Both the position numbers and the translations under genes were made by a program. Of a stretch of DNA of 44,205 nt, positions 3,515 through 44,205 are shown in pieces. A model generated the notes under the pieces. It was not told the origin of the DNA and did not search any database. It saw nothing but the letters and a program-made list of their open reading frames with translations. Source of the stretch: Clostridiales bacterium (lineage in GTDB: Bacteria; Bacillota; Clostridia; Caldicoprobacterales; UBA3941); NCBI GenBank assembly GCA_012735575.1, contig JAAYGY010000067.1:1-44205 (forward strand). Direction: 5' to 3'. Position 1 is the stretch's first letter, and each line of letters opens with the position of its first letter.

Positions 3515-3541
3515 ATAGGTGACAATTGAATATATATAAAT

Positions 3542-3660
3542 TATCCTTCGGGGCAGGGTGGAATTCCCTACCGGCGGTATAGCCCGCGACTCCTTCGAAA
3601 TGAAGGATTGACCCAGTGAAATTCTGGGGCCGACAGTTAAAGTCTGGATGGGAGAAGGTG
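3542..3660 (+). promoter_or_regulatory. FMN riboswitch (RFN element)
   Basis: The leader carries the conserved RFN sequence blocks in order: CCTTCGGGGCAGGGTG, ATTCCCTACCGGCGGT, AGCCCGCGA, a variable hairpin (TCCTTC-GAAATGAAGGA), then CCAGTGAAATTCTGG, CCGACAGT and TCTGGATGGGAGAAGG. CCTTC (3545-3549) pairs with GAAGG (3654-3658) to close P1. The known role is to bind FMN and reduce expression of flavin synthesis or uptake genes. Here it sits upstream of ribU, with an intrinsic terminator between aptamer and gene, so control by premature termination is expected. Confidence 0.97.
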
Positions 3661-3698
3661 GTGATCTTGTGATTATCTTATGTCGTAATGGATAGATT

Positions 3699-3845: not shown

Positions 3846-4466
3846 ATGATAGACCAAAAATCCATAAAAGAGGAATATTTATCTCCTAAAATATATACTT
3901 TAAACGGAATAGTCAAGATTGCCTTGTTATCTGCCATTGCTTTTATATTAATGCTATTGGAGCTGCCACTACCTTTATTTCCTGCATTCTTGAAAATTGA
4001 CCTTAGTGACCTGCCAGCATTGATAGGTGGTTTTGCTCTGGGACCTGTAGCATCTATTATAATACAGCTGATAAAGAATATACTTCACTTTATTTTTAAG
4101 AATGATGGTACCGGAGGTGCCGGTAATCTGGCTAACTTCATAGTAGGCATTAGCTTTACCGTACCAGCAGCCATTATATATATAAAAAACAGAACCAAAA
4201 AAGGCGCCCTTATAGGAATGGTAGTGGGAACCATCTCTCTGATTATACTGGCTTCCCTTGCAAATTACTTTGTTTTAATCCCCCTATATGCCAAGCTTTA
4301 TTCAATGGATGTTGTAATGGATTTAATGACTAAGGCTAATAACTTTATAGTGGACGTTAAAACCTACGTAATATTTGCAGTTGTTCCCTTTAACCTGATC
4401 AAGGCAATCTTTACATCAGTCATAACTCTTTTGATCTATAAAAAAGTTTCTCCCTTGCTAAAGTAG
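3846..4466 (+). CDS. ribU: Riboflavin ECF transporter S component RibU
   Basis: RibU is the membrane substrate-binding subunit for riboflavin of an energy-coupling-factor transporter; it works with a shared EcfA-EcfA'-EcfT module that is not in this window. The 206-residue protein has about five to six hydrophobic segments. Its N-terminal third (KIALLSAIAFILMLLELPLPLFPAFLKIDLSDLPALIGGFALGPV) matches the family, as does the KNDGTGGAGNLANFIVG loop. The start at 3846 follows a strong GGAGGAGG (3831-3838); reading the frame further upstream would add residues encoded by AT-rich leader. The FMN riboswitch directly upstream independently supports a flavin role. A hairpin terminator follows at 4527-4560. 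Confidence 0.95.
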   Translation: MIDQKSIKEEYLSPKIYTLNGIVKIALLSAIAFILMLLELPLPLFPAFLKIDLSDLPALIGGFALGPVASIIIQLIKNILHFIFKNDGTGGAGNLANFIVGISFTVPAAIIYIKNRTKKGALIGMVVGTISLIILASLANYFVLIPLYAKLYSMDVVMDLMTKANNFIVDVKTYVIFAVVPFNLIKAIFTSVITLLIYKKVSPLLK

Positions 4467-42555: not shown

Positions 42556-42571
42556 TATCGAAGTGGGTGAG

Positions 42572-43042
42572 ATGTTGGCTAGCGATAGCATCAAGGTTAT
42601 TGCTCAAAACCGAAAAGCACGGCATGACTATTTCATAGAAGAAACCTTTGAAGCAGGAATAGTGCTTTCTGGTACTGAAGTAAAATCCATCCGTTTGGGC
42701 AAGGTAAACCTTAAAGATAGTTATGCTGATATAAGAAATAGCGAGGTTTTTCTCAATAACATGCATATAAGCCCTTATGAAAAGGGAAATATAGCTAACA
42801 AAGATCCTATGCGTAGCCGTAAGCTATTGCTTCATAAGAGGGAGATCAATAAACTGATTGGCTATGTACAACAAAAAGGATTTACCCTAATTCCTCTAAA
42901 AGTATATTTAAAAAGAGGGTTAGTAAAAATAGAGTTGGCTGTTGCCCGTGGTAAGAAACAATATGATAAACGTCGAGACATTGCTAGACGAGATGCTGAA
43001 AGGGCTATGGCCAGGGCTTTTAGGGAAAGCCAAAGAGCATAA
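42572..43042 (+). CDS. smpB: SsrA-binding protein SmpB
   Basis: SmpB binds the tRNA-like domain of tmRNA and delivers it to stalled ribosomes. The 156-residue protein has the standard core: [20 protein letters not shown] (about 7-26), [21 protein letters not shown] (about 30-50, split motif [11 protein letters not shown]), a [10 protein letters not shown] loop, and the basic C-terminal tail [19 protein letters not shown] that enters the mRNA channel. The start is uncertain: ATG at 42572 gives the usual length, and GTG at 42563 adds three residues; neither has a strong ribosome binding site. It lies 61 bp upstream of ssrA. Confidence 0.96.
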
Positions 43043-43103: not shown

Positions 43104-43766
43104 GGGGGCGTATTGGTTTCGACGGGGATGATAGAGGTGAAAGAAGCGAGCTGCGGACTCCGGGGCCGCATCAACAACCTGGAATAAAAAATAAACGCAA
43201 ACAACGATAATTACGCTTTAGCTGCTGCTTAAGAAAGCAGCTACGTCTCTCCTATAGTTCCCGCGCTATAGGAAGGGGCGACAACTTAAGCGGGGAACTA
43301 GCCTAACAAAGCTTTGAGTTAGGTCGGACTTTATGAAGCTACTGAAGCTGGAATCCTGTCAGTGGGAGTCCAGTGGAGGGAAAGTCAAAACACTGACTGC
43401 GCTCGGAGATGCTTTCGCTGATATATCCTCGGACAGGGGTTCGATTCAAAAAGAGTCGCCTTGCAGAGCGATCTGCAAGTGAAAACCCGGCTTAATCGGT
43501 GAAACCGTAACGTATAGCTTTAGTGCTTTGACGACGGCAACGCCGAGGGGTATGAGGAGAAATCCAACAGCCCTGTATCGACTTATAGGCTTCTAAATCT
43601 AAGGATGGAACTTGTATTATCATCAATCCATAGACATGAAGTACTAGGATGGAAGCTTTAAACTATAATATGGCTTTCATAATACGCCGGGAAGCTCAGG
43701 TAAGAGCTTAAGACATAGTCAGCACCATTGGAAACAATGGAGTAATGTGTCCCCTCGCCTCCACCA
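43104..43766 (+). ncRNA. ssrA: tmRNA gene interrupted by a group I intron
   Basis: tmRNA rescues stalled ribosomes by acting as alanyl-tRNA and then as a short mRNA. The 5' end GGGGGCG (43104-43110) pairs with CGCCTCC (43756-43762), followed by A and encoded CCA (43763-43766). TTTCGACGGGG near the 5' end is the tmRNA hallmark. The tag frame runs 43198-43233 and encodes ANNDNYALAAA with a TAA stop. The T-stem AGGGG (43435-43439) and its partner CCCCT (43751-43755) are split by an insert at 43446-43749. Joining the exons restores the loop TTCGAT-T and a 359-nt RNA of normal size. A TATACG box at 43091-43096 may be the -10. Follows smpB. Confidence 0.96.
43446..43749 (+). mobile_element. Group I intron in the tmRNA T-loop, no ORF
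   Basis: About 304 nt. P1: exon CGAT plus intron TC pairs with GAGTCG (43453-43458) around AAAAA, putting a U-G pair exactly at the exon end 43445. P2: CTTGCAG (43460-43466) with CTGCAAG (43473-43479). P3: CCCGGC (43486-43491) with GCCGGG (43686-43691). P8: AAGCTC (43692-43697) with GAGCTT (43704-43709). The P7 3' strand AAGACATAGTC (43710-43720) has the group I consensus form; its 5' partner is uncertain, perhaps GACT at 43580-43583. P9: CCATTG-GAAA-CAATGG (43725-43740). The intron ends in G (43749). About 100 nt between the proposed P7 5' strand and P3 suggest P7.1/P7.2, as in subgroup IA. Self-splicing is inferred from structure. Confidence 0.9.
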
Positions 43767-43771
43767 AATAA

Positions 43772-43811
43772 AAAGGACTGTTATTTGATGAAAATCAATT
43801 AACAGTCCTTT
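43772..43811. terminator. Bidirectional terminator after ssrA
   Basis: AAAGGACTGTTA (43772-43783) pairs perfectly with TAACAGTCCTTT (43800-43811), and the stem can continue (TTGAT/ATCAA) to a GAAA tip. The minus-strand tail TTTTTATTT also suits the opposing endonuclease remnant. Confidence 0.8.
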
Positions 43812-43813
43812 AC

Positions 43814-44205
43814 CTATTTTGTGGATATGAATCTCTGATAGAAATCCTCTTTGGCTTTTAATAACTCTGGTGAACATCTCCCATTCCTTGGTGTTAGTGC
43901 CTTGTTTTCAGTGGGGATTAACTTCGCTCTTTGTTTTTTTTGTGGGATAACAAGATAGGGTTCAATTTCTTTTAGTAATAGAATAGCATCGTTGTATCTT
44001 ACTGTGATCGTTGTATCTTACTGTGATCGTTGTATCTTACTGTGTATGTATATGAATCCTGATGCTTATGTGGTTTATAATTTTTCTTAGACTTAATTCG
44101 ACCCATTTTAGTTGTTTCTAGTATCCATTTAAGTAATTCAATAGATCCAAACGAAATAATTGAGGAGTATTTCTCTAAAAATGCTGCTTAAGATGATATT
44201 GCTAC
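43814..44205 (-). pseudogene. Decayed LAGLIDADG-type homing endonuclease fragment
   Basis: Minus-strand translation gives two fragments. Upstream: SIELLKWILETTKMGRIKSK, then KNYKPHKHQDSYTYTVRYND, reading into a stop. Downstream, in another frame: AILLLKEIEPYLVIPQKKQR, then PRNGRCSPELLKAKEDFYQR, ending at TAG (43816-43814). The order G-x-I, Y-K-x-H-x-x-x-S-Y, A-x-x-L-L-x-x-I-x-P-Y-L and P-R-N-G-x-x-S-x-E-L-L matches the C-terminal half of single-motif LAGLIDADG endonucleases. The break coincides with three copies of a 19-bp unit; with one copy the frame would be continuous. An in-frame TAA at 44190-44188 lies further upstream, and the N-terminal half with the LAGLIDADG helix is not in the window. 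Recognition is from memory of the family. Confidence 0.7.
43988..44044. repeat. Three tandem copies of a 19-bp unit
   Basis: The unit ATCGTTGTATCTTACTGTG occurs three times without interruption or mismatch (43988-44006, 44007-44025, 44026-44044). It lies inside the endonuclease remnant; the 38 extra bases change its reading frame. Confidence 0.97.

Follow-up and report, generated by a model that had tools for sequence, protein, structure and literature searches.

The window analyzed here, a complete contig of 44,205 bases (C41 in a 105-contig genome), contains a tmRNA gene (ssrA) that is interrupted by a 304-nt insert. The ORF directly upstream (42563 to 43042, plus strand), named from our own reading of the sequence, is smpB, which encodes the partner protein of tmRNA. 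With the interrupting 304 nt present, ARAGORN found no tmRNA, and the Rfam tmRNA model matched 43112 to 43448 (147 bits), leaving the 3′ strand of the T-arm and the 3′ acceptor strand unplaced. The original prediction held that the T-arm forms only upon loss of these 304 nt, and indeed, when 43446 to 43749 were removed in silico, ARAGORN found a complete tmRNA of 359 nt, in which the 7-bp acceptor stem is perfect, the T-stem has 5 bp, and the tag reads ANNDNYALAAA*. No second tmRNA copy was found in the genome, in which the next match reached 33 bits, below threshold.

All three parts of the gene lie on the plus strand. Exon 1 (43104 to 43445) encodes the tag and extends from the 5′ strand of the acceptor stem to base 6 of the T-loop, the 304-nt insert (43446 to 43749) contains no ORF and ends in G, and the 17-nt exon 2 (43750 to 43766) supplies the last T-loop base, the 3′ strands of the T-stem and acceptor stem, and ACCA. 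The exon flanks re-form the T-stem AGGGG/CCCCT around the loop TTCGATT, which places the insert between T-loop bases 6 and 7, that is, at T-loop position 7. Since a T stands at both flanks, the boundary pair 43447/43750 would leave the mature RNA unchanged; 43446 to 43749 was chosen because group I introns follow the rules of a U.G pair at the 5′ splice site, here U43445.G43455 in P1, and of a terminal G, here G43749. These boundaries are exactly those first proposed, as are the splice-site pair and the terminal G. The segment from 43446 to 43749 is thus a group I intron that splits the T-loop of tmRNA.

The covariance-model search that had been suggested as a check came out favorably in one respect and not in the other: Intron_gpI (RF00028) matched 43436 to 43741 across its whole length (model positions 1 to 253; E = 2e-7), but the score of 36.5 bits falls below the gathering score of 50. 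Folded as a single sequence, the intron has a z-score of −5.78 relative to dinucleotide shuffles, none of 100 of which folded equally well. The helices originally read from the sequence (P1, P2, P3, P8, the 3′ strand of P7, and P9) are all present, along with P4, P5, P6, the 5′ strand of P7, P7.1, P7.2, and P9.0. For a comparative analysis, 11 homologous introns at the same site (that of the window and those of ten other genomes) were aligned and a group I structure was written onto the alignment. Standard pairing occurs in 98.5% of the pair cells, and 61 double-sided changes, distributed over 24 of 67 pairs, were observed versus 16 ± 3 in shuffles; no shuffle or slide was comparable on these measures, the structure being somewhat favored in the slide control since it was drawn from the window sequence. 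This covariation backs helices P1 to P9, P7.1, P7.2, and P9.0, except that P7 itself gives no such support because it never varies.

P1 (43442 to 43447 with 43453 to 43458), found by both fold and alignment, holds the splice-site pair, and P2 (43461 to 43467 with 43472 to 43478) is closed by a GNRA-type loop, GCGA, and has double-sided changes in five of its seven pairs. The conserved core consists of P3 (43486 to 43491 with 43686 to 43691; double-sided changes in three of six pairs), P4 (43496 to 43501 with 43541 to 43546), P5 (43505 to 43508 with 43534 to 43537), and P6 (43547 to 43551 with 43570 to 43574), the last three backed by the alignment, together with P7 (43580 to 43583 with 43717 to 43720), the guanosine site, aligned by RF00028 and invariant in 11 of 11 introns, and P8 (43692 to 43697 with 43704 to 43709; double-sided changes in five of six pairs). 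Double-sided changes are also found in P9.0 (43722 to 43724 with 43746 to 43748), in P9 (43725 to 43730 with 43735 to 43740), which has a GAAA loop, and in two helices characteristic of subgroup IA, P7.1 (43589 to 43593 with 43638 to 43642) and P7.2 (43649 to 43657 with 43672 to 43680). Because P7.1 and P7.2 lie between P7 and P3, the intron is assigned to subgroup IA, at the IA level. In two of the loci examined, L014 (1537 to 1827) and L038 (3594 to 3997), both sides of the splice-site pair have changed together, from U.G to C.A, a variant also reported in a 2025 survey (PMC11915505). In L038, the start of a group II intron lies at 4186 to 4266, about 180 nt past the intron-bearing tmRNA of that genome (G023).

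The anatomy is that of a group I ribozyme of subgroup IA in the tmRNA T-loop, and by homology it almost certainly splices. In P1, the last bases of exon 1 would pair with the internal guide of the intron and so set U43445.G43455 at the 5′ splice site, which would be attacked by a guanosine bound in P7; the freed exon 1 would then attack after G43749, and the joined exons would form the T-arm. The only identified tmRNA of the genome would depend on this splicing, and with it, we predict, ribosome rescue, a dependence known for other bacteria.

Group I introns in tmRNA were reportedly published in 2002 by Williams for Clostridium botulinum. The caution in the original prediction that the class might already be known was well placed, as 883 unique tmRNAs with group I introns have been cataloged from 21 phyla, mostly Bacillota (PMC11915505). 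Published tmRNA introns lie most often at T-loop position 7 and mostly have no ORF, so the suggestion that the ORF-less form might be new does not hold (PMC11915505). The homologous C. botulinum intron is stated to self-splice (PMC2729099). The intron of the window shares with the published ones its site, the U.G pair at P1, the terminal G, the absence of an ORF, the presence of P7.1 and P7.2, and a length within the range of about 255 to 390 nt, and we found no essential difference in the intron itself. At most it is a new member of the class and may already be in the survey's database (PMC11915505). Within the same order its occurrence is patchy: it is present in six genomes (G005, G009, G011, G012, G015, and G023), while an intron-less tmRNA is found in the same genus (G001, locus L036) and in others of the order.

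What is new here is the neighbor of the tmRNA gene, which the original prediction had also singled out as perhaps new and which, followed up, is a homing endonuclease gene (HEG) of the LAGLIDADG type. It lies antiparallel to the tmRNA gene (43814 to 44187, minus strand), ends 47 nt past it, and is broken, with a C-terminal part (43814 to 44017) and an upstream part (43999 to 44187) in different frames that are 63% and 54% identical, respectively, to an intact homologue at locus L032. The N terminus would lie past the contig end at 44205, and the window copy is without a LAGLIDADG motif because the contig ends there. The change of frame falls in three perfect copies of a 19-bp repeat (43988 to 44044) near the contig end and may represent either true decay or an assembly fault. 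Between tmRNA and HEG, an inverted repeat read from the sequence (43772 to 43811; arms AAAGGACTGTTA and TAACAGTCCTTT) is probably a bidirectional terminator.

The L032 homologue is an intact 135-aa gene that ends about 45 nt from its tmRNA. Its AlphaFold2 model (mean pLDDT, 92.7) has helices and strands in LAGLIDADG order, a profile search against the PDB returned I-MsoI (E = 1.5e-8), and Foldseek matches were I-Vdi141I, I-MsoI, and I-CreI variants. Motif, fold, and homology to solved members are thus all found on intact homologues. The Pfam match to LAGLIDADG_1 (E = 0.004) was below the cutoff, Pfam returned nothing for the two pieces in the window, NCBIfam gave no meaningful family, and no close relatives were found in viral contigs, where the best match was 39% identical over the full length. 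The structural model and the profile and structure searches together point to a family of I-MsoI/I-CreI-like LAGLIDADG endonucleases. It shares with the homodimeric I-MsoI and I-CreI a single LAGLIDADG motif, a size of about 135 aa, and the predicted fold but is only about 20% identical to them, and its gene is antiparallel to the host gene and not contained in the intron. No HEG beside an intron-bearing tmRNA is reported in the 2025 survey or in the open-license literature searched, although others may have noticed it before.

When the class, the phylum, and four families or orders were scanned, 62 genomes proved to have a close HEG homologue, a count that includes L032 from a separate collection and G005. 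In 58 of the 62, the tmRNA gene is on the same contig and convergent with the HEG; in the other four (G165, G838, G954, and G909), it is on another contig or was not found. Many of the HEGs directly adjoin tmRNA. In other genomes the orientation is kept but a distance of 1 to about 75 kb separates the two, which we attribute to integrative elements that entered between them at the 3′ end of the tmRNA gene. Within the order of the window, the HEG occurs only in G000, G004, G005, and G009, always at the tmRNA locus.

A pattern search for the intron, which may miss divergent introns, covered 391 genomes of the class and leaves 19 carriers: G096 was dropped as a chance match, G156 was excluded because it has an intron-deletion scar, and G316 was added by eye. 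Ten genomes have both HEG and intron, six have the HEG only, and nine have the intron only, so that the intron is present in 10 of 16 HEG-bearing genomes versus 9 of 375 without a detectable HEG (Fisher P = 3e-11), a P value that, like the others given here, overstates independence, as the genomes are related and two-way counts ignore relatedness. Intactness of the HEG shows a similar association. Full-length copies, defined as having the motif, accompany 29 intron-containing and 2 intron-less tmRNAs, versus 11 and 16 for broken copies (P = 1.5e-5; counted by genus, P = 4e-4), in a table that was sorted by hand with the hypothesis in mind and that excludes G165 and three HEGs cut by contig ends. 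G862 was scored as broken for its motif, GIIDSKG in place of the GIIDGEG of the others; by comparison with I-CreI, the E lost there is assumed to be the catalytic acid. The only full-length HEGs beside intron-less tmRNA are in G880 and G851, of one genus. In these two (L114 and L115), the T-arm is divergent (ACGGG-TTCGACA-CCCGT) and about 1 kb of inserted DNA separates HEG from tmRNA. Six close pairs of full-length HEGs, G880/G851 among them, have dN/dS values of 0.04 to 0.18, indicating that the protein is maintained.

Collaborative homing, in which an ORF-less group I intron lies beside a free-standing homing endonuclease gene, is known from phages, and the same arrangement is found here at a single locus. 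It differs in that the host gene is a bacterial chromosomal tmRNA, the enzyme is of the LAGLIDADG class, the gene is antiparallel, and the cutting site is inferred. The gene for the intron's mobility protein would then be the antiparallel HEG that follows the 17-nt exon 2, outside the intron. While the HEG is intact, its enzyme would cut tmRNA genes that have no intron, at or close to the T-arm, an inverted repeat that would suit a homodimer. Repair would copy intron, exon 2, and HEG together, the intron would shield the carrier's own tmRNA gene from cutting, and the HEG would degenerate after fixation of the intron, as in the window, or in its absence. This fits the linkage, the co-occurrence, and the decay. 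A group I intron with a linked HEG outside it is, as a whole, very likely the right explanation; that the free-standing HEG homes the ORF-less tmRNA intron by putative collaborative homing seems to us probable, and that collaborative homing thereby operates on bacterial chromosomes at an RNA gene is a reading that we favor slightly.

The main rival is that an ordinary ORF-less intron happens to share its address with an independent parasite for which the tmRNA 3′ end is a favored insertion site. Islands often use tmRNA 3′ ends, and HEGs adjoin intron-less tmRNA too. Distances among HEG, intron, and exon 1 correlate across 24 genomes, with HEG distance following tmRNA exon distance, but when the exon is controlled for, HEG and intron are only weakly correlated, and not significantly so (partial correlation, 0.12; P = 0.17); the main signal is shared vertical inheritance, and recent joint horizontal transfer of HEG and intron was unsupported by this test. 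Several observations speak against an independent parasite, however: HEG and intron co-occur strongly, full-length HEGs survive almost only where the intron is present, the HEG is convergent with one and the same gene in 58 of 62 genomes, and close relatives are lacking in viral contigs. We consider this rival unlikely, if worth serious attention.

A part of the same evidence, namely, that full-length HEGs go with the intron and evolve under purifying selection, would also be expected if the protein were a maturase for the tmRNA intron that decays upon intron loss, and some LAGLIDADG proteins are maturases. Yet the HEG is undetectable in 9 of 19 intron-bearing genomes and broken in about 11, and full-length copies retain the presumed catalytic acid of IAGIIDGEG, whereas the one lost in G862 belongs to an otherwise full-length HEG beside an intron-less tmRNA. 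Together with the self-splicing of the C. botulinum intron (PMC2729099), this makes a maturase improbable. Least of all do we expect that the 304-nt insert stays unspliced in a dead gene or that the tmRNA is made in two pieces. The Intron_gpI score below the gathering threshold could be taken that way, but the conserved catalytic core with its covariation, the exact splice-site rules, the intact exons and tag, and the lack of an identified second tmRNA gene make it extremely improbable.

The preferred reading, with the enzyme outside the intron, is relevant to a puzzle from the 2025 survey, in which an endonuclease gene was found in 54% of archaeal rRNA introns versus 4.1% of tmRNA introns (36 of 883), HEGs being reported only inside tmRNA introns and a neighboring HEG going unmentioned (PMC11915505). 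Those introns have the host gene and the LAGLIDADG class in common with the present case, but their HEGs are in P7.1 or after P9, while that of the window comes after exon 2 (PMC11915505). A linked HEG may explain the spread of enzyme-less introns and, if truly the mobility gene, would account for the apparent absence of endonucleases from nearly all tmRNA introns. With the enzyme next door, intron spread would be directly testable using small proteins and a short DNA target.

Several further remnants were noted. Contig C32 of the same genome has, at L035 (5883 to 6043, minus strand), a decayed duplicate of the 3′ end of the intron, tmRNA exon 2, and some of what follows, an alignment equaled by none of 300 shuffles; an integrated element may once have used it as its attachment site. 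In L096 (G294, C324, 6000 to 13500), an intron-bearing tmRNA gene is complete, and 2.4 kb beyond it lies another copy, a partial one, that begins at TCGCC in P1 and continues into exon 2, with an intact HEG after it. The intervening sequence encodes AAA ATPase-like and RloB-like proteins, named from reading. The T-loop in L078 (G156) holds only a 14-nt intron scar (TCATAAGAGTCGCC) joined to exon 2 at the shared TCGCC, and its T-arm looks broken. Elsewhere in the window, an FMN riboswitch is found at 3540 to 3663 (116.8 bits).
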